From: a virus
IMG/VR virus record: IMGVR_UViG_3300028188_000023
Span: 1-25,396 of that record
Direction: 5' to 3' (one strand)
Length of the DNA stretch: 25,396 nucleotides
Positions within the stretch are counted from its first letter, which is position 1, and the number at the start of each line of letters is the position of its first letter. A model generated the notes under the pieces. It did not search any database. It saw only the letters and a list, made by a program, of their open reading frames with translations, and was not told the origin of the DNA. Below, one piece after another: positions 1,329 to 20,352 of the stretch. A program made the position numbers and the translations under genes.

Positions 1329-2630
1329 CTATTCCTCCAGTAGGCTCAGCTGAGCAGCGTCTGTAAGCATTCGGAATGCAACTGCCACCACCAACGGAAC
1401 GACTCCATTTCCACCGAGCCGGAGTTGATCCACCCGGGAGGAAGGCCCATAAGCCACTCCTGAAATCGCGGGTTCAAGGTGCGGCCATCGCTCGAGGATG
1501 TGGAGCCATCTGGCGTAGTCTCCTCTTCCAGGAGGGAAGGGAAGAGGCTGGCCTGGTCCCTCAGTCGGCTCTTGGTCTGCGCCTTCTCCGTGTTGCTGGT
1601 TGCACCGCCGGTTTCCCTCGCAGCGGGCGTTCCCCATCTCCATGCCGCAGAGGGGAGCGTCAGATCGCTCTTGCTGCCCACCTGATGGGCCCCACCCTTG
1701 GCCCCGTCGCTGGCCCGAGCCGCGGCCAGGTCTGTCCCCGCGCAGCGCCGACCAGAGATTGCCCCCGTCGTCCGTCCGGTTCGTTCTGTCCCTGCTTCTC
1801 CTGGTTGGCTGTGGGGGTCGGCCACAGCTTGACGGCATGGTGGAGGCTGAGTTGATGCATGGTGGAGGCTGAGTTGATGCATGGTGCCCCGTTCCGCGGC
1901 ATTCTGGCCGTGCTTCCGGTCTGATTTGCGGAGTTGGCCCTCCATCAGCGCATCGAATGCATTGGGCGTTGGCCAGTTCCCCGCCTGCAAGCTCAGCGAT
2001 GTCCCCCCTTGGGCATATGAGGTGTTCCGTTGATTCCGATCGTCGGCTGTCGGAGTGGTCCAGTTCCCCGCAGCGCCTACCAGGCCATTCCGTTTGTCGT
2101 CCGCCCGTGCGGTGGGCCAGGATGAAGACTCGCTCCCGCCGATGTGGTGCGCCAACATCTCCCGCGCGGAGGAAGAACGGATCTTCGATCTCGTAACCCA
2201 GCTCGCATAGTTTCTCTCCAGCAGGCCGAAACCATCCCCGGGTAACGAAAGTTGAGACGTTCTCGATGAAGACCAAGGGGGGGCACACTTCTCCGACGAC
2301 GCGCACGAACTCGGGCCAGATAGCTCGATCGTCGGCGTTGCCTTTTTGGGTTCCTGCGAGGGAGTAGGGCTGGCAGGGCAGTCCTGCAGCGATGAGATCC
2401 ACCGCTCCACGCCACGGGCGGCCATCGAAGGTCGACAGATCGTCCCAGATAGGCGCTTTATCCAAGGTCTGTTCTTCCATTCTGGCCACGAGAGTGGCCG
2501 CTGCGCAGGCTTCCCGCTCAACGAAACAAACAGTACGGGCGCCGGGGACGGCGAGTCGGATACCGAGGTCGATTCCTCCAACGCCGGCGCAGATGGACAA
2601 TATTCTGGGGGGACATATAGCCACATTCAC
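1329..2630 (-). CDS. dcm: DNA cytosine-5 methyltransferase
   Basis: The 433-residue enzyme would transfer a methyl group from AdoMet to C5 of cytosine in a short DNA site, probably shielding phage DNA from host restriction. Motif I is LSICAGVGGIDLG (11-23); motif IV is GLPCQPYS with catalytic C86; motif VI is FIENV (121-125); motif VIII is APHRRERVF (161-169); motif X is GGNGVVP (406-412). The start is GTG at 2630, overlapping the previous stop (GTGA) after GGAGG; GTG at 2624 is possible. The stretch between motifs VIII and X, which holds target recognition, is odd: repeat-like methyltransferase sequence also appears in the +1 frame, open from ATG 2626 to 1346, and a 22-bp tandem duplication lies within it. 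The main frame is open throughout, but the target-recognition part may be altered. Confidence 0.85.
   Translation of the reverse strand: MNVAICPPRILSICAGVGGIDLGIRLAVPGARTVCFVEREACAAATLVARMEEQTLDKAPIWDDLSTFDGRPWRGAVDLIAAGLPCQPYSLAGTQKGNADDRAIWPEFVRVVGEVCPPLVFIENVSTFVTRGWFRPAGEKLCELGYEIEDPFFLRAGDVGAPHRRERVFILAHRTGGRQTEWPGRRCGELDHSDSRRSESTEHLICPRGDIAELAGGELANAQCIRCADGGPTPQIRPEARPECRGTGHHASTQPPPCINSASTMPSSCGRPPQPTRRSRDRTNRTDDGGNLWSALRGDRPGRGSGQRRGQGWGPSGGQQERSDAPLCGMEMGNARCEGNRRCNQQHGEGADQEPTEGPGQPLPFPPGRGDYARWLHILERWPHLEPAISGVAYGPSSRVDQLRLGGNGVVPLVVAVAFRMLTDAAQLSLLEE
1837..1880. repeat. 22-bp tandem duplication inside the methyltransferase gene
   Basis: Two perfect head-to-tail copies of a 22-bp unit beginning ATGGTGGAGGC occupy 1837-1858 and 1859-1880, followed by the first six bases of a third copy. 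Because 22 is not a multiple of three, the duplication shifts the reading frame by one. Removing one copy on paper joins two otherwise separate frames into a continuous methyltransferase-like reading (HHAVKLWPTPTANQEK). Confidence 0.9.
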
Positions 2631-2959
2631 GCCGCCTCCAGCAGTTTCCGCAGTCCCGGTGCCATCTCGGCCACCAGCTGCAGCGCCGCTTCCTTTACCT
2701 CCCGCTGCCGCATCTCCTCGGCCATCCTCTGCTGCTCCTCTCGCTCTCGTCGCATCTGCTCCATTGCCCGTCTCGTCTCTGCTCCTCCTGCTATGATGGC
2801 CTCTCTCCGCTCTCTGATGGCCGCACAGCGACGACAGAGGGAACGGGGTGCGTCGAAGGACTCCTCGGCGTCGAGGGTGAGAGGACGGCCGCAGAGGGTG
2901 GTCTCGCCGGCAGTCTCGTGATAGGTGCCAGAGGGGGTGAGCTGGACGTAGAGGATCAT
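2627..2959 (-). CDS. Small protein with Cys motif and coiled coil
   Basis: The 110-residue product has an N-terminal part with TLCGRPL (near 21) and SLCRRCAAI (near 40), a Cys arrangement seen in small zinc-binding proteins of actinobacterial and phage origin. A long charged helix follows, rich in Arg, Glu and Gln (residues about 48-90, RREREEQQRMAEEMRQRE), probably a coiled coil. The start codon overlaps the stop of the upstream gene as ATGA, and its own stop overlaps the methyltransferase start. Role unknown; coupling suggests co-expression with the methyltransferase. Confidence 0.65.
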   Translation of the reverse strand: MILYVQLTPSGTYHETAGETTLCGRPLTLDAEESFDAPRSLCRRCAAIRERREAIIAGGAETRRAMEQMRREREEQQRMAEEMRQREVKEAALQLVAEMAPGLRKLLEAA

Positions 2960-3564
2960 GAATTGATAGCAGCGGTGACGTGCGCCAGCACCCGCCCCTG
3001 GGCGAGGGGGGCCAACTCCTGCAACGCCGTGACGATCTTCTGCAAGGCGCAGGCCTCCGCCTCGAGGGCGACGACCGGACCCATCCTCTTGGGCAGCATC
3101 GGGGGATTCTTCGCCTGGAGCTCGACCGGTGCAGTCGCCGGCGCTTTCTTCTTCGGTGTAGTCTTCTTCTTCGCCGTCGTCTTTCCATTCCGCTGTGCCG
3201 GCGTGGGGATCCCGTGGGTTTTGCAGCGGGTGGCGATGGCGCCGCTACTGACGCCCAGTTCGTCGGCCGCTTCCTGGTTGGTCAAGGCACGATTGATGAC
3301 CTCCTCGAACTTCTCCTGCGGGATGGGCTTTTTCTTTGCGGTCTGCTCCGGTTTCTTCTCTTCAGTTGCGGCGCTATTTTGCTCGGTCATGGGGTATTCC
3401 TTTCGTTGGGTTTGCTCCTGGCGGGATGCCAGGGTGTAATGCTTCAGACAGTATCCTTTCCAGCGGCCGTCTTCTTTGCAGCCGTCGACGGCGCAGCGGC
3501 CGGGTTTGTAGCTGCCCAGGGGGCCCGCTTTGGGGTCTGGCTGGAGAACATCGAGAGTGCTCAT
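2956..3564 (-). CDS. Zinc-finger and helix-turn-helix protein with Lys/Ala-rich linker
   Basis: From ATG at 3564 (ATGA overlap with the sigma factor stop) the product has 202 residues. Residues about 23-42 (RCAVDGCKEDGRWKGYCLKH) look like a short CxxxxC...CxxH zinc finger. Residues about 95-125 contain an HTH (TNQEAADELGVSSGAIATRC), followed by a basic KKKTTPKKK stretch and a helical C-terminus. An in-frame ATG at 3390 has a strong AAAGGA site eight bases upstream, so a shorter 144-residue form without the zinc finger may also be made. The domains suggest a DNA-binding regulator; the target is unknown. The frame stays open upstream to 3753, but that part lies inside the sigma gene and is probably not coding. 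Confidence 0.65.
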   Translation of the reverse strand: MSTLDVLQPDPKAGPLGSYKPGRCAVDGCKEDGRWKGYCLKHYTLASRQEQTQRKEYPMTEQNSAATEEKKPEQTAKKKPIPQEKFEEVINRALTNQEAADELGVSSGAIATRCKTHGIPTPAQRNGKTTAKKKTTPKKKAPATAPVELQAKNPPMLPKRMGPVVALEAEACALQKIVTALQELAPLAQGRVLAHVTAAINS

Positions 3565-4430
3565 CCAGCGGCCTCCTGGATTCGCTTCCATTTCGTCTCC
3601 TTGGCCCGATCGATCATCACCTCCTTCAGCTCTTCCAGCGCCCGGTTGCGCAGCTGGCGTACCCGCTCCCGGGTGATGTTCAGTTCGTCGCCGATCTCCT
3701 CTAGCGTCATGGGCTCCTCGCCGGCCAGGCCGAAATATTTCTCGAGGATCCACTTGTCCCGAGATTCGAGGGTATCGAGCATACCATCGATCATCTCCCG
3801 CAGTTCGGCATGGTGCAGTTCGTCGTCGGCTGCCGGAAAGGTCTCCTGCTCATACCGGCCCAGAAAGCTGATAGGGTCGTGTTCGTCGGTTTCGAGGGGG
3901 CTGTCCAAAGAGCAGCTGGCGTTCCGGATGGTCTGACCCCGCAGGGCACGGTCCTCGGATATGCCGGCATTCGCGGCGATCTCATGCAGGGTCGGGTAGC
4001 GGCCCATCTGCTGCATCAACTTTTCGCTCTTGCGATCGACGGCATAACTATCCATCACGACGGTCAGGGGCGGGCGGACGGTTTTGTTTTCGCCCAAGGC
4101 TTTTTTCATTCTTTGGCGCAGCCACCAAACTGCGAACGAGATGAGCTTCAGGCCGCGGCTGGCGTCGAACCGGTTCAGCGCCTCGATGAACCCATCCACG
4201 CCTTCGGAAATCAGATCGTCGAGAGGGAGGAAGCGGTTCTCGTATTCCTGAGCGATGGTGAAGATGAAGCGGAGATTGGCGTGGATGAGGGTGTCCCGGG
4301 CGTCCAGGTCGCCATCCTGCTGGTAGCGACGGATCAGGCGCTGCTCCTCGTCGCGGGGGAGGGGATCGATCGTGTGCGGGTAGAGCATTTTGAAGGGGCG
4401 TTCGTCGGTTCTGCGGACGGCTGTGATCAT
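3561..4430 (-). CDS. Phage-encoded sigma-70 family RNA polymerase sigma factor
   Basis: The 289-residue protein would bind host core RNA polymerase and redirect it to phage promoters. Region 2 spans about 45-110: DTLIHANLRFIFTIAQEY resembles the core-binding helix of RpoD, and LISFAVWWLRQRM matches the -10-reading helix (YATWWIRQAI in RpoD). Region 3 is around 140-165 (GRYPTLHEIAANAGISEDRA) and region 4 around 212-270, with the -35 HTH NITRERVRQLRNRALEELKE. Region 1.1 is missing, as in small primary-like and phage sigmas. It starts at ATG 4430 after AAAGGAT. Its place in the early operon suggests a middle or late transcription switch, but I could not identify its promoters. Confidence 0.9.
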   Translation of the reverse strand: MITAVRRTDERPFKMLYPHTIDPLPRDEEQRLIRRYQQDGDLDARDTLIHANLRFIFTIAQEYENRFLPLDDLISEGVDGFIEALNRFDASRGLKLISFAVWWLRQRMKKALGENKTVRPPLTVVMDSYAVDRKSEKLMQQMGRYPTLHEIAANAGISEDRALRGQTIRNASCSLDSPLETDEHDPISFLGRYEQETFPAADDELHHAELREMIDGMLDTLESRDKWILEKYFGLAGEEPMTLEEIGDELNITRERVRQLRNRALEELKEVMIDRAKETKWKRIQEAAG

Positions 4431-8274: not shown

Positions 8275-9213
8275 GTGTCAAAGTCAAACGAAAACTTAAA
8301 AGAAATTAAAGAAATTTCCGGACTCGCAGAACGAATGAGTGAAATCATTGGCGAGGGGCGAGGAAGGAAAAAGCTGTTTGCTGATGAGCTTGAGCTATCT
8401 CAAGCATCTATTTCTCAATATCTTAGCGGGAAGATCACTCCTCCAGTAAAAACAGTGATACGATTTGCTGAGATCGACAATATTTCTCTGGATTGGCTTC
8501 TAACTGGCCGTGGCTTCAAATATCGACTTTTACAGGAGAAACGGGGGATACGGCACGCAGAGGACGGAACTGTTTCTGTGCCTCTTCTTGACGACGAGGG
8601 GAATGCCCTATCCCGGGTAAGCCTGGAACCAAACGAAGGGGCCCCGACTCGGATTCCCATCCTCGGCAAAGTTCCAGCTGGCAAACCCGGAGACGGCGGC
8701 CGTCGTTGGAGCCAGTACGATGCCCCTGATTTCATCGAGCGCCACCTCTCCTCAGACGATCCGGATCTGATCGCTTTAGCTGTCTCTGGCGAGTTGATGT
8801 TCCCGACGCTGTACCCAGATGACCATGTGATCGTCAGCCCAAACGCAGCCTGGGACGCGGGGGATATGGTGGTGGTGGAGATCGACGATTACAACGAGGA
8901 TTACTTGGTGAAGCGCCTGGGCCCGACGGTAGGAGATCGGGTGATGCTGTTCAGCGATAACTGGATCTGCTACGAACCGATGGAGGTGGAGGTAGACCGC
9001 ACCAACGTCCGGGGGAGAGTCCTGGGTATCTACCGGACGCCCAGTCGTCGGCAGGATCCACAGATGTACGGTGATGCGGGCATTGTCGAGTACCACCGAG
9101 ATCCGGCCGTGCAGAAGATCATCGAGCTACTGCCCACCCTCGACGAGGGGCATCGGCAGGCCATCATCGAGATGATCCGGTCGCTGAATAAGGCCGTGGG
9201 GAAAGAACTGTAA
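8275..9213 (+). CDS. CI/LexA-type repressor with an altered S24 peptidase site
   Basis: The 312-residue protein has an N-terminal HTH (ADELELSQASISQYLSGKIT, about 36-55) for operator binding and a C-terminal S24 fold. The usual self-cleavage site is present as VPAG (A135-G136), and the general-base lysine is in LVKRL (K213). The catalytic serine of the usual G-D/E-S-M motif is absent: the sequence is SGELMFPTL with Leu174 (codon TTG at 8794-8796), one base from a Ser codon. The protein should bind DNA and dimerise but should not cleave itself when RecA is activated. The start is GTG at 8275, with no clear ribosome site, perhaps a leaderless transcript. The C-terminus is about 60 residues longer than in most CI-type repressors. 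Confidence 0.85.
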   Translation: MSKSNENLKEIKEISGLAERMSEIIGEGRGRKKLFADELELSQASISQYLSGKITPPVKTVIRFAEIDNISLDWLLTGRGFKYRLLQEKRGIRHAEDGTVSVPLLDDEGNALSRVSLEPNEGAPTRIPILGKVPAGKPGDGGRRWSQYDAPDFIERHLSSDDPDLIALAVSGELMFPTLYPDDHVIVSPNAAWDAGDMVVVEIDDYNEDYLVKRLGPTVGDRVMLFSDNWICYEPMEVEVDRTNVRGRVLGIYRTPSRRQDPQMYGDAGIVEYHRDPAVQKIIELLPTLDEGHRQAIIEMIRSLNKAVGKEL

Positions 9214-9225
9214 ATCCTTCCTACA

Positions 9226-10086
9226 TCATCGGCTGAGTTGGGATTTTACGTGACCCCACGTAGCCGATCGTACCAGCGTGGGGGAGGTATCCACTCGGCT
9301 CCAAGTGGCTCCGCCCTGGGTCTGAAACCCTACGTCCGTCGCTTTTATCTCGATCGTGCTCCTTCCACTGGCGCCGGCCTCATTGGCGATGATATCCCCC
9401 AATTGTCCACCGAACCCGGACAACCGGGCATAGTAACTGACATCATCCGTCGTCTGGTAGAGGCCCGGCATTATATCGACTCCAACGATCCAGAAGCCAT
9501 CCCCGAAAAGAGTTCTCAACTCTGGCCGGTACGAGTCATCGACGATACTCCAGTACCCCTCGCCCGAAGAATGAAAAGCGACATCCCCAGATTTTATCTC
9601 CACCACTATCGGACCATCGGAGAAGGCCTCATTTGCCAAAATATCCCCAAGTTCGCCCCCGACTCCGGATAGCCGTTCGTGGTAGCTGATTCCAACCTCT
9701 GAGCGATACAACCCTGGCTTGATGTCTTTTCCAACGAGCCACCAACCTGGCCCGAATGATGTCTGTTGTTCTGGTTGATAGGAGTCGTCGAGAAGATACC
9801 ATTCTCCATCCCCATTTGACTCGAAGGCCACATCACCCTCTTTGATTTCTACCAGGACGGGTCCATCGTCCGGAGTTTCATTGGCGATGATGTCACCAAA
9901 TTCTCCACTGACTCCAGACAGCCGGGCGAAGTAGCGGACTTCACCCTCGGTTCGGTAGACCCCAGGCTGGATGTCTGTACCGACGAGATGAGTCCCCTCG
10001 CCGAAGCGGGTGGCAGGTTGCGCTGAGATCGTGGCTGCAGTTGCGATCAGGATGGCTGCCGCGATAGCGAATCGGTTTCTTTTCAT
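9226..10086 (-). CDS. Secreted protein with three tandem 83-residue repeats
   Basis: The 286-residue product has a signal peptide (MKRNRFAIAAAILIATAATI, probable cleavage after ISA at 22). Three similar units start near residues 28, 111 and 194. Each contains VG-x-DI-x-PG-x-YR, RLSG-x-x-GE-x-GDI-x-ANE, a VEIK or IEIK strand, then DVAF and a Trp. I know this pattern from secreted or lipid-anchored proteins of Actinobacteria and Chloroflexota; the function is not established. It is transcribed toward the repressor, outside the lytic operons, with its own strong ribosome site (AGGAGG). This is typical of a gene expressed from the prophage that changes the host surface. The repeats lack the cysteines I recall in actinobacterial members. 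Confidence 0.75.
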   Translation of the reverse strand: MKRNRFAIAAAILIATAATISAQPATRFGEGTHLVGTDIQPGVYRTEGEVRYFARLSGVSGEFGDIIANETPDDGPVLVEIKEGDVAFESNGDGEWYLLDDSYQPEQQTSFGPGWWLVGKDIKPGLYRSEVGISYHERLSGVGGELGDILANEAFSDGPIVVEIKSGDVAFHSSGEGYWSIVDDSYRPELRTLFGDGFWIVGVDIMPGLYQTTDDVSYYARLSGFGGQLGDIIANEAGASGRSTIEIKATDVGFQTQGGATWSRVDTSPTLVRSATWGHVKSQLSR

Positions 10087-12533: not shown

Positions 12534-14068
12534 AGCGCAAGAAGGAGCTCTCCAAGGAGGCGCGATTCCTGCGGATGTACCGACAAAAGCCATCGATCTG
12601 GCTGCAGCAGAAGATACGGATCGAGCCGGCACGGTACCGCTCGCAGGAGGAGCTGCAGGCGTGGCTCGATCGACAGCCCGCCGACTCGCACAGCTGGGCG
12701 CGGGAACAACTGGGACAGGGACGGCTAAAGCTCGACAGCACCCGGTCCTACCAGACGCAAGCCCTGGACATGATGGCCGTACCGGGCTGGTATGCCTTTC
12801 AGTGGTGCAACGGGGCCGCCAAGACAGCCACCGCGGCACTGTTCGTCCATTGGTTCCTCGACTGCTTTCCCGGGGGGAAGGTGCTGACCACGGCCGGGAC
12901 CTGGTCACAGCTCAAGGAGCAACTGTGGCGCGAGATAGCCAGCTGGGCGACCCGGACAAAGATGCCGATTGCAGCCAACTCAGCACCGCAGGGCATCGGC
13001 AAGACGCAGATCGACATCGCCCCCGACTGGGCAGCGTTCGGTCGAGCAGCCGACCAGGGGGCCACCTTCGAGGGGGTGCACGCCCAGCATGTCCTGGTCC
13101 TGATGGACGAGGCCAAAGCGATCAAGCCGGAGATCTTCGAGTCGGTTCGGCGTATCCTGCGCGGCAATCCCGGCGCTCATTTTTGGTGGGTCTGTCTGTC
13201 CAGCCCTGGTTCGCCCTCGGGGCCGTTCTTCGACATCACCAATGGCGAGCAGGCGCACCGCTGGACCACTTTGCGCATGTCGGCCTACGAGGCTTCCCGA
13301 GTCGATCTGAGCGTAGTAAAGCAGGATGCGGAAGACCTGGGCGAGAGTTCGCCGTTGTTCATCTCGATGGATCTGGGCGAATTCCCAGAAGAGGGCGACG
13401 ACGTCATCATCCCACTTTCTCTGGCGCAGTCGGCTGTAGGGAGGATAGTCAACACCTCTGGTCGTCCAGTCTTAGCGGTCGATGTGGCGCGACTGGGAGG
13501 AGACGAGACGGTCTTTGGGCGGTTCCGCAATCGGGCGTTCGATATGCCGTTGATCTACCAGGGGAAGCGGACGACCGAGACGGCCGGCCATCTGGTGCGG
13601 ATGCGGCACGAATACGGGACGATGGCTATCGACGATGGGGGCGTGGGTGGGGGCGTGGTAGATATGGCACTGGAGGAGAATCTCAACGTGTTGGCTATCA
13701 ACGCCGGCAGCAAGTCCCCGGATCCGCACTACTTCGATCTGGGGACGAACATGGCGTTTGCCGTTCGGCGCGAGTTGGAGCTGGGGCAGGAGAGCCAGGA
13801 TGATCCGGACGTCGGGATCAGCCTGCCGGAGGATAAGCGGCTCCTCCACCAGCTGGCAGCGCGCAAATACGAGGTGCGACGGAACGGCCAATTGAAAGCA
13901 GAGAGCAAGGCAGATATGCGCAAGCGCGGCGAGAAATCCCCCGATCGATCAGACACCCTCAATATGGGTTGGTGGGTGCGTGCGGGTGAAGTCGTTGGGA
14001 GCTCGCTGTCTGCCAATTCGGAAGATCAGCGCACCACCTTCGGCGGTTTACGGGAGCAGGCATTGTGA
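12530..14068 (+). CDS. terL: Terminase large subunit
   Basis: The 512-residue motor would pump DNA into the prohead and cut concatemers. ATPase part: Walker A region QWCNGAAKTA (91-100), Walker B VLVLMDEA (188-195), and a coupling SSPGSPSG segment near 224-231. Nuclease part: LAVDVARLGGDET (315-327) with D318 and D325, AIDDGG near 367-371, and PDRSDTLNMGWW close to the C-terminus, which together give the acidic metal-binding set of the RNase H-like fold. Walker A is unusual in having Ala where Gly normally precedes the Lys. It starts within the TerS stop codon, and its own stop overlaps the portal gene. Confidence 0.88.
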   Translation: MKRKKELSKEARFLRMYRQKPSIWLQQKIRIEPARYRSQEELQAWLDRQPADSHSWAREQLGQGRLKLDSTRSYQTQALDMMAVPGWYAFQWCNGAAKTATAALFVHWFLDCFPGGKVLTTAGTWSQLKEQLWREIASWATRTKMPIAANSAPQGIGKTQIDIAPDWAAFGRAADQGATFEGVHAQHVLVLMDEAKAIKPEIFESVRRILRGNPGAHFWWVCLSSPGSPSGPFFDITNGEQAHRWTTLRMSAYEASRVDLSVVKQDAEDLGESSPLFISMDLGEFPEEGDDVIIPLSLAQSAVGRIVNTSGRPVLAVDVARLGGDETVFGRFRNRAFDMPLIYQGKRTTETAGHLVRMRHEYGTMAIDDGGVGGGVVDMALEENLNVLAINAGSKSPDPHYFDLGTNMAFAVRRELELGQESQDDPDVGISLPEDKRLLHQLAARKYEVRRNGQLKAESKADMRKRGEKSPDRSDTLNMGWWVRAGEVVGSSLSANSEDQRTTFGGLREQAL

Positions 14069-16215
14069 ATCTGAGAGAATTTGTCAGAAGCTGGCTTTTT
14101 GCCGATGCGCCGGGACAACCTGCGGGCTTGGAAAGCTACCAGGGCGCCTCCGGCGTGCGTTTCTCCGGTGGTGTCATCGATGCCGGCGAGTTCAACACCG
14201 ACCTGAAGGGCACCAAGGGGGCCAAGGTGTACGATCAGATGCGCCGGGAGGCGATGGTCAAGGCCCCCATCCAGCTGATAAATCTGCCCATCCTGGGAGC
14301 CAAGTGGGACATCGAGGCCGAGGACGATGCGGTGCGCGACTTCCTTGTCGAGGCTTTGTTCGAGCGCATCGACTGGGAGCAGTACCTCCGCCACTGCCTG
14401 CTGACCTACACTTTCGGCTTTGAGGTGCTGGAGAAGATATGGGTGAAAGAGGGAGGCAAGCTCTGGTATGAGGCGCTGGAGCATCGATCGCAACGGTCGA
14501 TCGCCAAGTGGCACGCAGACCCGGAGACGGGCGCCCTGGCCGGCATCGAGCAGCAGGCCTGGAAGGGGAGCGAGTGGGGCACGTTCAAGATCCCCGACGA
14601 ACAGAGCCCTATGGATGCCCGGTTTAAGCTGGTGCACCTGGCCCTCGATCAGGAGGGCAACAACTTCGAGGGCATTTCCGGTTTGCGCGGCGCCTATCCC
14701 TACTGGAAGGGCAAGACCGAGCTGTTCAAGTTCGGGCTGATGGATGCCGAGCGTTTCTCTGTGGGTATCCCCGAGGCGGAGCCACCCCTGGATGAGAGCA
14801 GTGGGGCTCCTCGAGGACGGTTCAGCCCCGAAGACAAGAACGAAGCCATCAGCATGCTGCAGCGCATCCGTGCGGGCGCTCAGGCCTACATCTGGAACCC
14901 CGGCGGGTGGAAGTTCAAGGTGTTTGGCAAGGAGAAGGAGAAGCAGTTCGATCCTATCCCGCTGCTGCAGTACTGCGACGAGATGATCGCCCTAAACAGC
15001 CTTGCCGAGTTCCTCAACCTGGGGCGCACCGCCACCGGGGCCCGGGCCGTGGCCGATCCGCAGACGGCGCTCTTCATGTTGGCATTGGAGTCGATGGCCG
15101 AGTTGATCCGTATCCGGACAGAGCAGTGGGTCATCCGGCCGCTGATCGAGCTCAACTATCCGAATCCGCAGAATATCAAGGCCGGCCTGCGGTGGTCTGA
15201 CCTGGAGACCAAGCACCCGGAGAAGGTGGCCGAGTATATCACCAAGATGACGGCCGCCGGCCTGCTGACGCCCGATGAGGATCTCGAAGATCATGTCCGC
15301 GAGGTGGGCGACCTGCCACCCAGGGAGGGCGAGGTATCCAAAGCGGCAGGGGAGCGCCCCCACCGGAACCGCATCTCCCTGGCGGTCTCTTCCTACTGGC
15401 GCGATCTGACGCCGGCAGAGAAGACGGTCTCCCTGCGCGAGATCGACGGCAAGCAGGACGATGCCGAGGAGCGTATAGGCGACCAGGTCGATCAGCTCAA
15501 GAAAGTCTGGATCGACGACTTGGTTGGCCAGATCGACACCGCCCTGGCCGATGGGGATGTCCGGGATGTAGCCGATATCTCGATCGACAAGAAGCTCCGG
15601 TATACGGAAGTCTCCGAGACCATCAGCCAACTGCGTGACCTGTTCCGGTTTGGGCGGCGCACCGTCCGGGAGGAGAAGGCGCGGCAGGCCAAGCAGGCGA
15701 CCGATGGCGCAGGGAGGGCCCTGCGCGACGACGACATCACCGACAAAGAGATCACCGACGGCCTCTGGGTGCGCGTCCGCAGATACTTCGACAATCTGGC
15801 CGCCCGCCTCACCTCGGTGGCTGTCGAGAGGGGTCTCAACCTCTCCCGGACGAAGGGGACCGACTACGACGAGGCCGACCTGGAGGAGATCAGTGCCAGC
15901 CTGGATGATATGTTCGGCCCGACCGCCCGGATAGAGGCGCGGGTGCTGATCGCCGAAGCGTTCACCCTGGGCCGCAACAGAGAGGCAGAGATACAGGCCG
16001 ACGATATCGCCCGGGTTGAGTACTCGGCCATCCTGGACACCAACGTCTGCTCTGTGTGCGAGTCTGACGATGGCCGGACGTTTGTGATGGGCAGCGCTGA
16101 CTATTATGCCCACATGCCGCCGAACGCTTCCTGTCTGTCGACCGCGTCCGGATCTAACAGATGCCGTTGTCTGTACGTCTACATCTTCACCACTGAACAA
16201 GAGGCGGTACGCTGA
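14065..16215 (+). CDS. Portal protein (Mu gp29/DUF935-like) fused to a MuF-like domain
   Basis: At 716 residues this is longer than a single portal. Residues about 1-400 resemble Mu-type portals (YDQMRREAMVKAPIQLINLP; YTFGFEVLEKIWVKEGGKLW; then LNLGRTATGARA and a helical stem), which form the vertex channel for DNA. The last 120 residues fit the Mu gpF/SPP1 gp7 minor head family: VEYSAILDTNVCSVCESDDG with C662 and C665, then PPNASC and NRCRCLYVY (C690, C700, C702). The final cysteine cluster has an insert (LSTASGSNR) where the family usually has a compact HPNCRC. The join suggests that portal and ejected head protein are made as one chain. Start GTG/ATG: GTG-type codon at 14065 overlapping the TerL stop. 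Confidence 0.82.
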   Translation: MNLREFVRSWLFADAPGQPAGLESYQGASGVRFSGGVIDAGEFNTDLKGTKGAKVYDQMRREAMVKAPIQLINLPILGAKWDIEAEDDAVRDFLVEALFERIDWEQYLRHCLLTYTFGFEVLEKIWVKEGGKLWYEALEHRSQRSIAKWHADPETGALAGIEQQAWKGSEWGTFKIPDEQSPMDARFKLVHLALDQEGNNFEGISGLRGAYPYWKGKTELFKFGLMDAERFSVGIPEAEPPLDESSGAPRGRFSPEDKNEAISMLQRIRAGAQAYIWNPGGWKFKVFGKEKEKQFDPIPLLQYCDEMIALNSLAEFLNLGRTATGARAVADPQTALFMLALESMAELIRIRTEQWVIRPLIELNYPNPQNIKAGLRWSDLETKHPEKVAEYITKMTAAGLLTPDEDLEDHVREVGDLPPREGEVSKAAGERPHRNRISLAVSSYWRDLTPAEKTVSLREIDGKQDDAEERIGDQVDQLKKVWIDDLVGQIDTALADGDVRDVADISIDKKLRYTEVSETISQLRDLFRFGRRTVREEKARQAKQATDGAGRALRDDDITDKEITDGLWVRVRRYFDNLAARLTSVAVERGLNLSRTKGTDYDEADLEEISASLDDMFGPTARIEARVLIAEAFTLGRNREAEIQADDIARVEYSAILDTNVCSVCESDDGRTFVMGSADYYAHMPPNASCLSTASGSNRCRCLYVYIFTTEQEAVR

Positions 16216-17489
16216 TGGCCAAGAAGAAGAAACAGCAGCAGAAGCTCGAGCTGACGCCCACGCGGTTCAAGGAGCGGCTGGCCAACCTGGACGAGCAACG
16301 CGGTCGCCTGGTGGCCCGGGCTCGTGAGGAGATCGGCACCTACTACACCGCCCTGGTGGGCGGACAGGCCCAGCTGGTCGAGTCCCAGCAGGATATCCCG
16401 TACGTCGAGATGTGGGCGGAGGTGCACTGGACGGAGAAGGCGGCGGAGATGATCCGCAACGACGAGTTCCGCTACATCTCGCCCGAGTTCGATCTGGACT
16501 ACACCGACGTGGGGACGGGCGATCGTATCGGCGCTGCGCTGTTGGCCGTTGGTCTGGTCAACCGGCCGTTTCTCAAAGGGATGGCCAAGGTCGAGGATCC
16601 CGATGAGGACAATGTCTCGCACGTCCAGGTCTTTGCCACCGGCGAGTATTTCCACCCGTGGTATGGACGTTTCTCTATCCTGCCCAGCCACCTGCAGGAG
16701 ATGATCGACAATATCGACGCGGTCTTCAGCTCTGTGCGCGAGGAGAGCGACCATCCACCGACCGAGATGATGGTCGATTTCAATCACAATAGCCTCTTTG
16801 GCAGTCCCGACGAGAGTCTGGCCGCTGGCTGGGTCCGTGGAAAGGGCATCTACACCCAGGAAACATCTGAGAGCAAAGCAGCATCTGAACCGCCAAATCA
16901 CCCCTCCACCACTCCCTCACAAGGAGTTATCACCATGAAGGAAGAAAGAATCCGCGAGATCCTCCAGCTGGGGGAAGACGTGGAAACTATCACCGATGAG
17001 CACCGCGACCAGGCACTCGACGCGCTGGACGCCCAGCTGGCCGAGAAGCCGGCAGACGAGTCCCAGCAGGCCAGCGAGCCGGCCTCGGGCACCGTGCAGT
17101 TGTCCGAGGAGCAGCACACCCAGCTGCAGACGCAGGCCACGGCCGGCGAAGAGGCGCTGAAGAAGCTCCAGGAGCGGGATGCTCGGGACGCCGCGGCCAG
17201 TGCGCTCAGCGAGGGCAAGCTCACCCCGTCGCAGAAGGACTGGGCGGAAAAGTTCGCGCTGAAGGATCCGGAAGGGTTCGCCGAGTTCGTCGCTTCGGCC
17301 CCGGTCGTCGTCGACACCACCCGCCACGGGTCCAACCAGGAGGACACCCGGGCGGAGTCGGAGAAGATCCAGACGTTTCTCGACGAGAAGGTCGCCGGTG
17401 GGATGGATCTGGCCGATGCTCAGGGAGCAGCGCAGAAGCAGTTCGGCGAGGAGGCGTTCACCGCCTACCGCAACCGCAACAAGAAATAG
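16215..17489 (+). CDS. Head maturation protease/scaffold (Mu gpI-like) with swapped halves
   Basis: The 424-residue protein joins protease-like and scaffold parts. Residues about 66-123 (WAEVHWTEKAAEMIRNDEFR, YISPEFD, GLVNRPFLKGM) match the C-terminal half of Mu gpI-like proteases. Residues about 142-208 (TGEYFHPWYGRFSILPSHLQ, MMVDFNHNS, SLAAGWV) match their N-terminal half. In the Mu family as I know it the order is the reverse. Residues 241-424 are a helical, acidic scaffold, with LSEGKLTPSQKDWAEKFAL as in gpI C-termini. A strong internal start at 16935 would produce the scaffold alone. The gene follows the portal and precedes the decoration and capsid genes, as expected. Confidence 0.75.
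   Translation: MAKKKKQQQKLELTPTRFKERLANLDEQRGRLVARAREEIGTYYTALVGGQAQLVESQQDIPYVEMWAEVHWTEKAAEMIRNDEFRYISPEFDLDYTDVGTGDRIGAALLAVGLVNRPFLKGMAKVEDPDEDNVSHVQVFATGEYFHPWYGRFSILPSHLQEMIDNIDAVFSSVREESDHPPTEMMVDFNHNSLFGSPDESLAAGWVRGKGIYTQETSESKAASEPPNHPSTTPSQGVITMKEERIREILQLGEDVETITDEHRDQALDALDAQLAEKPADESQQASEPASGTVQLSEEQHTQLQTQATAGEEALKKLQERDARDAAASALSEGKLTPSQKDWAEKFALKDPEGFAEFVASAPVVVDTTRHGSNQEDTRAESEKIQTFLDEKVAGGMDLADAQGAAQKQFGEEAFTAYRNRNKK
16935..17489 (+). CDS. Scaffold protein from an internal start (Mu gpZ-like)
   Basis: An in-frame ATG at 16935 lies eight bases after AAGGAG (16921-16926), one of the best ribosome sites in the window, inside the protease gene. The 184-residue product (MKEERIREILQLGEDVETIT at its start) is acidic and helical, rich in Gln, Glu and Ala, as expected for a capsid scaffold. 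In phage Mu the scaffold Z is likewise made from within gene I. A Ser/Pro/Thr linker lies just before the start. Confidence 0.65.
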   Translation: MKEERIREILQLGEDVETITDEHRDQALDALDAQLAEKPADESQQASEPASGTVQLSEEQHTQLQTQATAGEEALKKLQERDARDAAASALSEGKLTPSQKDWAEKFALKDPEGFAEFVASAPVVVDTTRHGSNQEDTRAESEKIQTFLDEKVAGGMDLADAQGAAQKQFGEEAFTAYRNRNKK

Positions 17490-17567
17490 ATCCGATCAGC
17501 TCTGGTTGATCGGCTGTCCACACCCCGGACAACGAGATGAACCGCAACCTTTTGAATGGAGAGTATC

Positions 17568-17954
17568 ATGCCTGATGGAGCTGTCACCATCGATCTCGGG
17601 CAGAACAAATCTGCCGTCGATCTGTCCGGGAAGCAGTATTACGCCGTCCGTCTGGACGAGACCAGCGGACAGGCGAGGCTGGCCGTCACCGCATCGGTCA
17701 ACGCAGGGATCCTGCAGAACAAGCCGGTCACCGGCCGACCGGCCGCCATCCGCGTTTTTGGCGAGTCGTTCGGCGTGTGCTCGGGGGCGGTCACTGCAAT
17801 GGATCGCCTGGCGCCCGACGATAGCGGGCACCTGGTCGTCTCGACCACCGACACCGACGAGGTCATCGCTTTCGCGATCGAGGCCGGTGGCACGGCTGGC
17901 GCCTCCTCGATCCTGAACGTGGTCGCCATCGGCCCGCAGACGATCGCCGGCTGA
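17568..17954 (+). CDS. Capsid decoration (cement) protein
   Basis: The 128-residue product, starting MPDGAVTIDLGQNKSAVDLS, then QYYAVRLDETSGQARLAVTA and GILQNKPVTGRPAAIRVFGE, follows the pattern of small beta-rich cement proteins: a YAVKLD strand, an xGILQN turn and a repeated Ala/Gly/Val-rich core. They bind the capsid surface after expansion. ATG 17568 follows GGAG; ATG 17556 is in frame but has no good site. It sits between scaffold and major capsid, where such genes usually lie. The 78 bases before it contain only a short 7-bp inverted repeat, CCGATCA/TGATCGG. Confidence 0.7.
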   Translation: MPDGAVTIDLGQNKSAVDLSGKQYYAVRLDETSGQARLAVTASVNAGILQNKPVTGRPAAIRVFGESFGVCSGAVTAMDRLAPDDSGHLVVSTTDTDEVIAFAIEAGGTAGASSILNVVAIGPQTIAG

Positions 17955-18037: not shown

Positions 18038-18991
18038 ATGAGCAATCCTACCGCCTCCGACGTCCACATCGACGCCGCGCTGTCGGATCTGGCCATTGCC
18101 TGGGGCTCTCAGCAGTACGTCTGGGATCAACTCGCCCCGGTCGTGGATGTCCCCAAGCAGTCCGACAAGTACCACATCTTCACCCTCGACGACTTCCGCC
18201 GAGATGAGATTCCCGGCCCCCGAGCAGAGAAGACGCTGGCCGAGCGTGGGGAGTATGGCCTCTCCAACGACAGCTTCTACTGCGACGACTGGGCCTGGGG
18301 CAAATCCACGTCCAAGGAGGCCAAGAAAAACGCCGATGCTGCGCTCAACCTCGAGCAGGCGGACCTCCGTTACTGCCTCGGGGTGGTCAACCGCAGGATC
18401 GAGCTGCAGTGGGTGTCCGAGGTGTTCACTACCTCCGTATGGGACACCGACATCACCGGCGCCTCGTCCGTCTCGACCAACCAGGTGATCTACTGGTCCA
18501 CCGAGGCCACCTCGGAGCCGATCCAGGATGTGCGGGCGCAGGCCGACGCCATCCAGAAGGCCACCGGCGAACGGCCCAACCGGCTGGCGATGGGGCGCGA
18601 GGTGCTGACCGTCCTGCTCGACCATCCGGACATCGTCGATCGCCTGCCGGTCAACGCTATCCGCGAGGTGATGCTCAAGCACCTGGCAGCCTTGTTCGAG
18701 GTCGATGAGATCATCGTCGGCGTGGCCAGCTACAACTCGGCCAAGAAGGGCGCCACGGTCTCCAATAGCTTCATCTGGGGCAAGAACGCGTTGCTCTACT
18801 ACGTGCCGTCCAGTCCTTCCAAGGACGTCCCGTCGGCGCTCTACTCGTTCCGCTGGGGACCCCGCTCGGTGCTCAACTACGAGGATACCCCTGCGGGTAA
18901 GATGGCCGACGTCATCGAGGTGCACGACTACGTCGATGTGAAGGTCACCGCGTCGGAACTCGGGGTTTTCTTTTCTGGAATCGTCGAGTAA
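18038..18991 (+). CDS. Major capsid protein
   Basis: The 317-residue protein begins MSNPTASDVHIDAALSDLAI and contains segments typical of long-tailed phage coat proteins: LAPVVDVPKQSDKYHIFTLD, then QADLRYCLGVVNRRIE, a central GERPNRLAMGREVLTVLLDH helix-strand, and NSFIWGKNALLYYVPSSP near the end. These resemble a family of HK97-fold major capsids found in metagenomic phages. Strong ribosome site (AAAGGAA) for high expression. No delta-domain is present; the separate scaffold upstream would take that role. The 83 bases upstream contain CACCCC/GGGGTG pairing. Confidence 0.8.
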   Translation: MSNPTASDVHIDAALSDLAIAWGSQQYVWDQLAPVVDVPKQSDKYHIFTLDDFRRDEIPGPRAEKTLAERGEYGLSNDSFYCDDWAWGKSTSKEAKKNADAALNLEQADLRYCLGVVNRRIELQWVSEVFTTSVWDTDITGASSVSTNQVIYWSTEATSEPIQDVRAQADAIQKATGERPNRLAMGREVLTVLLDHPDIVDRLPVNAIREVMLKHLAALFEVDEIIVGVASYNSAKKGATVSNSFIWGKNALLYYVPSSPSKDVPSALYSFRWGPRSVLNYEDTPAGKMADVIEVHDYVDVKVTASELGVFFSGIVE

Positions 18992-19584: not shown

Positions 19585-19631
19585 TCTAAGATGGTAAACA
19601 CCCCGAACTCTCTCGATCATCGTCTGGAGCA

Positions 19632-19663
19632 GCTGGGGGGAAGCCTTCGGGTCTCCCCCCAGC
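19632..19663 (+). terminator. 10-bp G/C-rich hairpin before the glycosyltransferase
   Basis: GCTGGGGGGA (19632-19641) pairs perfectly with 19654-19663 across a 12-base loop. A pyrimidine-rich stretch without a proper U-run follows. It may be a partial terminator that lowers expression of genes after the capsid block, or a stabilising mRNA 3' end. If the glycosyltransferase begins at 19591 it would be coding. Confidence 0.5.
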
Positions 19664-19704
19664 CCTCCAGCCCATCTCAACCCCAACCCTCCCAGAGAGA
19701 TGAT

Positions 19705-20352
19705 ATGAGCGGTATCCATATCGTTGTGCCGCTCTCCTGGGAGATGACCTACAAGCGGCACAACGCCAGCATGTTCGGTCTCCGCAAGGGAAATGCTACC
19801 ACGACGTGGATCCAGGCCGATACCATTGCTGGGATGCGCAATGAGGGGATCAGGCGGACCCGCGGGGAGGGAGCCAAGAAAGTGCTTTTCATCGATGCCG
19901 ACATGACCTTCGATATCGACGCCCTTGAGCGGCTTTTGAGCCACGATGTCCCGATCGTCGGGGGTCTATGCCGGCAACGGCGGGAGCCTTTCTCTGCCAC
20001 CCTCTGGCGACGGGAGGGCAAGGGGCACTTTATGGTGCCTCCAGAGGGCCACGGCCTGCAGGAGTATGATGCGACCGGCGGCGCTTTCCTCCTGGTAGAT
20101 ATGTCGGTCTTTGACGGTATCGACAAGCAGGTCAACGTCGAGGGTCGATACTTCGTCGATCAGCGTGATAATGTGGCGTTGCCCAAGGAGGAGCGCTGCT
20201 CGGAGGATATCTACTTCTGCAACCTGGTCCGCCATTGCGGCTTTCCTCTCTACGTCGATCTATCCTGTAAGATTGGACACCTGGTCATCGGTGAGGTTAT
20301 CGACGGCGACGATCACGAACCCCAGTTCAGATTAGAAAAAGGAGCACAATAA
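19705..20352 (+). CDS. Glycosyltransferase, GT-A (family 2-like)
   Basis: The 215-residue product has a GT-A-type core: GIHIVVPLSWEM at the start, KKVLFIDADMTFDIDALERL (58-77) with DAD as the nucleotide-sugar metal site, PIVGGLCRQRREPFSATLW after it, and SEDIYFCNLVRHCGFPLYVD near the end with a probable catalytic acid. It would move a sugar onto a target, likely a virion protein given that it is inside the structural operon. The start at 19705 is preferred because the earlier in-frame ATG at 19591 gives only a Pro/Ser/Gln-rich lead that carries a hairpin. The ribosome site at 19705 is, however, weak. Confidence 0.75.
   Translation: MSGIHIVVPLSWEMTYKRHNASMFGLRKGNATTTWIQADTIAGMRNEGIRRTRGEGAKKVLFIDADMTFDIDALERLLSHDVPIVGGLCRQRREPFSATLWRREGKGHFMVPPEGHGLQEYDATGGAFLLVDMSVFDGIDKQVNVEGRYFVDQRDNVALPKEERCSEDIYFCNLVRHCGFPLYVDLSCKIGHLVIGEVIDGDDHEPQFRLEKGAQ

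Follow-up and report, generated by a model that had tools for sequence, protein, structure and literature searches.

A Mu gpI-type capsid-maturation protease with its halves in swapped order: a probable natural circular permutant in a metagenomic virus

The IMG/VR virus record IMGVR_UViG_3300028188_000023 was analysed over its positions 1 to 25,396, a stretch of 25,396 nucleotides referred to here as the window. Directly downstream of the portal gene lies an open reading frame of 424 codons (16215–17489) which has no internal stop in translation, and whose start codon, ATG, overlaps the portal stop codon, TGA (TGATG). The gene very probably encodes a capsid-maturation protease fused to a scaffold, the protease domain being a natural, working circular permutant of the Mu gpI-type (herpes-assemblin-like) domain that has been cut in the beta5–beta6 hairpin; this assignment draws on sequence comparison and predicted models. 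The features of the gene are as follows.

16215–17489, + strand: whole gene, 424 amino acids, read as a permuted Mu gpI-type maturation protease with a C-terminal scaffold.
16215–16391, + strand: N-terminal extension, residues 1–59, modelled with helices at 15–40 and 42–49 and a short strand at 52–56; conservation is poor.
16392–16595, + strand: the canonical C-terminal half (beta6, alphaB, beta7, beta8), placed first here, residues 60–127, by profiles and model.
16479–16481, + strand: putative nucleophile Ser89 (FRYISPEF), by conservation of its alignment column.
16560–16562, + strand: Asn116 (VNRPF), candidate third active-site residue, a role suggested by conservation.
16560–16613, + strand: new linker, residues 116–133, leading from canonical beta8 to canonical beta1 in the predicted models.
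16602–16862, + strand: the canonical N-terminal half (beta1 to beta3, alphaA, beta4, beta5), placed second here, residues 130–216, by profiles and model.
16785–16787, + strand: putative catalytic His191 (VDFNH), by conservation of its alignment column.
16921–16926, + strand: Shine–Dalgarno-like AAGGAG, 8 nucleotides upstream of an internal ATG, a sequence signal.
16935–17489, + strand: nested scaffold frame from M241, the C-terminal part of the fusion, by phrog matches and start signal.

Searched as a whole, the protein matches Pfam PF10123 (Mu-like_Pro) in three stretches (E-value 4.3e-31, 109.1 bits against a cutoff of 25.2) and PHROG 328, head maturation protease (phrog_328, E 1.1e-31). An initial annotation of this DNA had claimed that the two halves of the protease stand in reversed order within one open frame, and the translation carries the blocks as claimed. 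When the parts are searched singly, the first (16215–16616) aligns PF10123 positions 78–134 with residues 66–127, and the second (16617–16928) aligns positions 27–68, weakly (E 0.014, 15.4 bits). A profile of the canonical family, built from 32 canonical relatives (alignment A6) and 143 positions long, places its positions 72–139 at residues 56–127 (78.5 bits) and then its positions 5–70 at residues 130–209 (36.3 bits); jointly, the halves span positions 5–139 once. In a six-frame search of the whole window at E ≤ 10, exactly two matches to the canonical alignment were found, one at 16377–16595 (positions 71–139, E 6.5e-25) and one at 16602–16841 (positions 5–70, E 8.3e-12). The window thus contains one complete copy of the domain, with its halves swapped. 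The halves thus align to the family profile in the swapped order and not the normal one. The canonical linear order, in which the VDYxH/AAGW half is followed by the WT/YRYxSP half, is not that of the window protein, which by its sequence is a permuted variant of PF10123 and PHROG 328 and not a canonical member.

The order of the halves across the family was judged in a scan that used the WT/FRYISP half as query, with the best 80 of 472 confirmed stretches kept and an N-half profile built from 14 of those loci. Of these 80 loci, 77 begin with the VDYxH/AAGW half, with low scores in some cases (the lowest 13 bits) and a number of near-duplicates among them; in the other three (L025–L027), which belong to the permuted group, this half is second. 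The normal order is therefore the one assumed in the initial annotation. A further scan, with an alignment of permuted members, returned 24 loci: eight in the window's order, one (L114) in another order and 15 canonical, the last called by the N-half profile and by reading, with L126, L127 and L128 scoring below 7 bits and called by reading.

The contigs in the window's order are L105 and L106, L107 and L108, and L109 to L112, where L110, L111 and L112 are the contigs of L026, L025 and L027. L105 and L106, both IMG/VR contigs, are identical to the window in DNA over the 5521 and 9272 bases compared. The other six form two diverged lineages (L107/L108 and L109–L112) with about 40% protein identity to the window protein (L107 42%, L109 39%). 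Searched over its full length, each of the eight contigs, like that of L114, contains exactly two half-matches at E ≤ 0.001; the contigs may be fragments. The swapped order is thus common to diverged contigs, yet is not the standard of the family; the permutation is common to a clade, and both this and a possible second cut point (in L114) go beyond what had been claimed.

An exact-peptide scan of viral contigs with the window protein found two contigs only, L105 and L106, and among genome contigs no relatives were found by the same scan or by the permuted alignment. With tblastn, the window protein matched 24 phage records and nine plasmid records, and the L026 protein matched 21 phage records; 18 of the 24 phage rows for the window protein match only inside residues 60–138. 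The proteases read from the tblastn hits, in ten phage records and one of the nine plasmid records, are canonical in 11 of 11 cases, five of them called by profile (mushu, yong1, S-TIM5, S-TIM54 and Thioclava) and the others by eye and motif positions. Three candidate permutants were discarded: yong1, whose match to query residues 49–168 ends in a chance extension of the alignment, and S-TIM54, with a colinear match to L026 residues 49–175, are both canonical by profile, and L130, which the permuted alignment A4 brought up, is also canonical. A DNA pattern for the swapped junction hit 11 contigs, comprising six known permuted ones and five that lack the domain; it missed L107 and L108, so this search is not exhaustive. 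Two canonical relatives carry unusual additions. In Microcystis phage yong1 (L001:2743–5289) a single frame of 848 amino acids holds the protease, the scaffold and 400-odd further residues (phrog_22848, unknown function), possibly a protease–scaffold–capsid fusion. At L010:9028–10488 a canonical protease has an N-terminal HNH_3 domain, as if part of a homing endonuclease had been fused to it.

Residues 1–240 of the window protein were modelled with AlphaFold2 from an alignment of 53 rows, in which 23 canonical relatives were entered as separate halves alongside four permuted relatives and L114 in two pieces. The model has a mean predicted local distance difference test score (pLDDT) of 82.1 and a predicted template modelling score (pTM) of 0.71, with block pLDDT values of 91–97 at residues 61–170 and 78–88 at residues 181–220. 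Its elements (E, strand; H, helix) are E64–72, H74–81, E87–97, E104–115, E134–141, E143–147, E151–155, H157–165, H167–171, E184–189 and E203–216. The model of a canonical relative, L030 (pLDDT 90.6, pTM 0.85), has E7–14, E17–21, E25–29, H31–43, E49–53, H63–66, E68–78, E81–88, H90–97, E103–113 and E120–131. Begun at E81–88 and wrapped around, the L030 list becomes the permuted list but for one short helix on each side, with agreement of the ten main elements. In the models the cut falls in the two-residue beta5–beta6 turn and the old termini are joined via residues 116–133. Taken together, profiles and models give the elements of the parent domain once each, cyclically shifted and with the old termini joined, as in a circular permutant. 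The proposal of a gpI-like protease, circularly permuted or otherwise rearranged and followed by an intact scaffold, has in this way gained the agreement of the swapped profiles, the shared order of the homologues and the cyclic shift in the predicted structures. The N-terminal extension was also considered as a remnant of a duplicated beta5, and this found no support: shuffled sequences scored as high in 1991 of 2000 trials for the window, 1610 of 2000 for L107 and 1487 of 2000 for L109.

The canonical L030 model resembles known assemblin-type proteases. By VIA-align it matches the varicella-zoster virus protease (Z 11.2, root-mean-square deviation 2.3, 111 residues aligned), the pseudorabies virus protease (Z 10.9) and T4 gp21 (Z 9.0, root-mean-square deviation 3.6, 115 aligned). 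Foldseek gave nothing for it at E ≤ 0.001, its assemblin-type folds reaching at best 1.7e-3 with probability 1.00, and nothing meaningful came of comparing the canonical alignment with the sequences of solved structures (best E 0.66). In BFVD, the best match of the permuted model spans just 53 columns.

Conservation was assessed in a domain alignment of 80 rows, made up of 76 canonical ones and the window, L107, L109 and L114, after removal of near-duplicates and of rows with fewer than 90 columns. In the canonical rows 14 columns are at least 90% conserved, and 13 of these are kept in the window protein, 12 in L107, 13 in L109 and 14 in L114. In the columns of His191 (H57), Ser89 (S101) and Pro118, every canonical row that has a letter carries the same residue, and the His and Ser columns are retained in the window, L107, L109 and L114. 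Prohead proteases have been described as sharing a Ser/His-dependent mechanism with herpesvirus proteases (PMC7411985), and Ser89 and His191 are inferred to be the putative catalytic residues. Among canonical rows, conservation reaches 99% at the Asn116 column. The spacing from Ser89 to Asn116 is 27 residues, near the 25 between S153 and D178 in SPN3US gp245, to which a triad of H77, S153 and D178 has been assigned by alignment to T4 gp21 (PMC5694885). That Asn116 might be a third active-site residue is a guess. Members of the L109 type have AAAW where canonical ones have AAGW.

Selection on the gene was estimated for one pair, L026 and L109, as the ratio of nonsynonymous to synonymous substitution rates (dN/dS). 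Values are 0.043 for the protease part (residues 46–200), 0.056 for residues 1–45, 0.456 for the linker and 0.225 for the scaffold part. In this pair, strong purifying selection acts on the protease part.

From residue 228 onwards, the matches are to C-terminal regions of further proteases from phages (phrog_2976 and phrog_3894). An in-frame ATG at 16935 (M241) is preceded by AAGGAG 8 nucleotides upstream, and at the corresponding site the relatives have AAGGAG (L107 and L108) or GGAGG (L109 and L025–L027). The scaffold of Mu (Z) is made from an internal start in gene I, and a scaffold-only product is probably also translated from M241 in the window gene. The permutation spared this nested frame but shifted the tether: the scaffold would now leave the protease after beta5.

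A number of results count against the assignment as a permutant. The second half by itself scores under the Pfam cutoff, with E 0.11 against PHROG 328, and Pfam finds only the first block in L107. In the permuted model residues 171–180 are less certain (block mean 64), and two short helices have no counterpart (63–66 in the canonical model and 167–171 in the permuted one). The permuted model is also not independent of the homology claim, because the canonical halves were entered as separate rows. For this model VIA-align listed no herpes protease or T4 gp21 (best Z 3.6) and Foldseek gave no match at E ≤ 0.001; since these aligners depend on chain order, a permutant would be expected to give this outcome, which does not amount to a positive structural match.

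Three other explanations were weighed. A lone metagenomic contig could be chimeric, with a misjoin within 16400–16870. Two of the supporting contigs are identical to the window over the parts compared, and their source may be the same sample as the window's or a related one; alone they would not exclude a shared misassembly. The same order is found in one open frame, however, in contigs diverged to about 40% identity (L107/L108 and L109–L112), and the purifying selection on the protease part in the tested pair also speaks against an artefact. Independent misjoins at one place are not credible, and as the diverged contigs come from other IMG/VR assemblies a misassembly is untenable even without reads; its probability is taken to be negligible. 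It might instead be supposed that the rearrangement broke the protease, leaving a decayed, inactive remnant of which the scaffold alone is used. The protease activity of the permutant is a prediction, and the AAAW of the L109-type members in place of AAGW would fit such a loss. It is nevertheless very unlikely, given the dN/dS in the protease part (0.043 against 0.225 in the scaffold part, one pair), open frames throughout, and 12 to 13 of the 14 conserved columns kept in three permuted lineages. Nor was a further domain match found, either in the window (at E ≤ 10) or, at E ≤ 0.001, in nine other contigs that may be fragments.

The halves could also act as separate modules, for example in domain-swapped dimers, with the A half of each chain completed by the B half of its partner. 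The linker of 18 residues would permit this, the model was built for a monomer only, and herpesvirus proteases work as dimers. Set against these points, the confident monomer model has all main elements in one chain, and L114 appears to have the same beta8–beta1 junction with a different cut point, as circular permutants would show. An arrangement of this kind is accordingly rated as unlikely, and a working circular permutant folded within one chain is the preferred explanation.

As a working permutant, the protein would have the chain order beta6–alphaB–beta7–beta8–beta1–beta2–beta3–alphaA–beta4–beta5, according to the profiles and the predicted model. A linker of some 18 residues would connect the end of beta8 to the start of beta1, the old termini, and the new opening of the chain would lie in the tight beta5–beta6 hairpin. 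In the permuted chain the nucleophile Ser89 therefore precedes His191; from the fold and the conservation the two are expected to come together in the folded active site. By analogy with known prohead proteases, the protein most likely enters the prohead through its scaffold part and is activated during assembly, whereupon the active protease would cleave the scaffold and the capsid-protein precursors and cut itself free. The permutant may have arisen by duplication and trimming.

L114 (IMG/VR 3300008470_000347; L114:4821–5957) appears to hold the same protease in another arrangement. The canonical profile aligns positions 33–142 with residues 15–129 and then positions 6–41 with residues 131–167. 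The match of the moved segment is weak (11.2 bits with the canonical profile and 17.3 with the N-half profile; 13.5 bits and E 3.6e-4 in a search of the whole contig), and Pfam gives a single stretch in normal order. On these swapped profile coordinates strands beta1 to beta3 seem to follow beta8, and the cut would be between beta3 and alphaA. No lost N-terminus lies upstream, as the portal frame ends 15 bases before the start codon. An exact-peptide scan for further contigs of this type found none, and the arrangement is represented by a single contig. In the domain tree the clade of the window has an ultrafast bootstrap (UFBoot) support of 99 and adjoins the canonical loci L030, L034 and L029, and L114 groups with other canonical loci at 68. 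With a reduced set L114 stands beside the canonical L102 at a UFBoot of only 23, an unstable placement, and the approximately unbiased (AU) test does not reject a single permuted clade (p 0.097). Two independent permutation events, in L114 and in the clade of the window, are favoured, not shown. The wider proposal, which falls somewhat short of probable, is that the assemblin-like protease, a hallmark of tailed phages and of herpesviruses, was permuted at least twice, with cuts at beta5–beta6 and at beta3–alphaA, the same closure of the old termini and a relocated scaffold tether both times. If this is true, the tether would lie after beta5 (window clade) or beta3 (L114) and not after beta8, which would alter how the protease is held and released relative to the scaffold in head maturation.

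The protease gene is flanked by the following genes.

14065–16215, + strand: portal (PF06074 by profile), directly upstream of the protease gene.
17556–17954, + strand: small gene between the protease and capsid genes, a small head protein by position alone.
18038–18991, + strand: major capsid protein (phrog_1005, E 3.6e-67).

The C-terminal part of the portal has a weak MuF-like match, below cutoff. The portal occupies a single frame in the window and in L026, and two frames (1188–1919 and 1926–3287) at L107:1188–3287, where the split may be real or a sequence error. From the position, size and reading of the frames, the order portal, protease, small gene, capsid is apparently common to L026 and L107. 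Within the structural gene block, 19591–20352 has a weak match to glycosyltransferase family 2 (E 7.8e-4, below cutoff). Elsewhere in the window, a CI/LexA-type repressor with a helix-turn-helix and a peptidase S24 domain is encoded at 8275–9213, which suggests a temperate phage. The minus strand carries, among others, a phage-encoded sigma-70 family factor with Pfam regions 2, 3 and 4 (3561–4430), a long frame with a C-5 cytosine DNA methylase domain (1329–3188, E 6.9e-28), and a protein of 286 amino acids with a signal-peptide-like start and, by eye, three imperfect repeats (9226–10086), for which no Pfam match was found at E ≤ 0.01.

With Mu gpI, PF10123 and PHROG 328 the window protein shares a profile score well over cutoff, the conserved H, S, N, AAGW and WT, a C-terminal scaffold and a location between the portal and capsid genes; it differs from Mu gpI and PF10123 in its reversed halves, its cut in the beta5–beta6 hairpin and a scaffold that follows beta5 and not beta8. 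Herpesvirus assemblin and T4 gp21 are both matched by the model of the canonical relative, and the permuted model has the same main elements after a cyclic shift. In the triad assigned to SPN3US gp245 the order is H77, S153 and D178 (PMC5694885), unlike the window chain, in which Ser comes before His. Phages RDJL1 (gp71) and KPP23 (ORF084) have related capsid proteins (34–35% identity) and a protease gene in the same block but, unlike the window, separate protease and scaffold-like genes. The translations of these two proteases, which are presumably XkdF/S78-like, show a His region followed by GFS(I/V)GG, a motif seen by eye. Full-text literature searches, in which subscription journals were poorly covered, found no permuted maturation or prohead protease among the matches listed. 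The nearest precedents found concern other proteins. A change of chain order in a phage head protein of ancient fold is described for the BPP-1 major capsid protein, which has a permuted HK97 'Johnson' fold (PMC3863775); that case concerns a capsid protein and a non-circular permutation, whereas the window has a protease and a circular one. The permuted NlpC/P60 papain-like enzymes (PMC3142127) offer a natural circular permutation of a catalytic domain that shifts the nucleophile in the chain, albeit in an unrelated cysteine-enzyme fold.

Four hallmark proteins have been named for Duplodnaviria, and the capsid-maturation protease is among them (PMC12451611). Because the order-dependent structure searches did not list the assemblin fold for the permuted model and a profile search splits the domain, more permutants may have gone unannotated. 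A natural permutant would demonstrate that this fold tolerates closure of its old termini, and that its active site is independent of a His-then-Ser order in the chain. It would also make the role of the position of the scaffold tether in prohead maturation testable.

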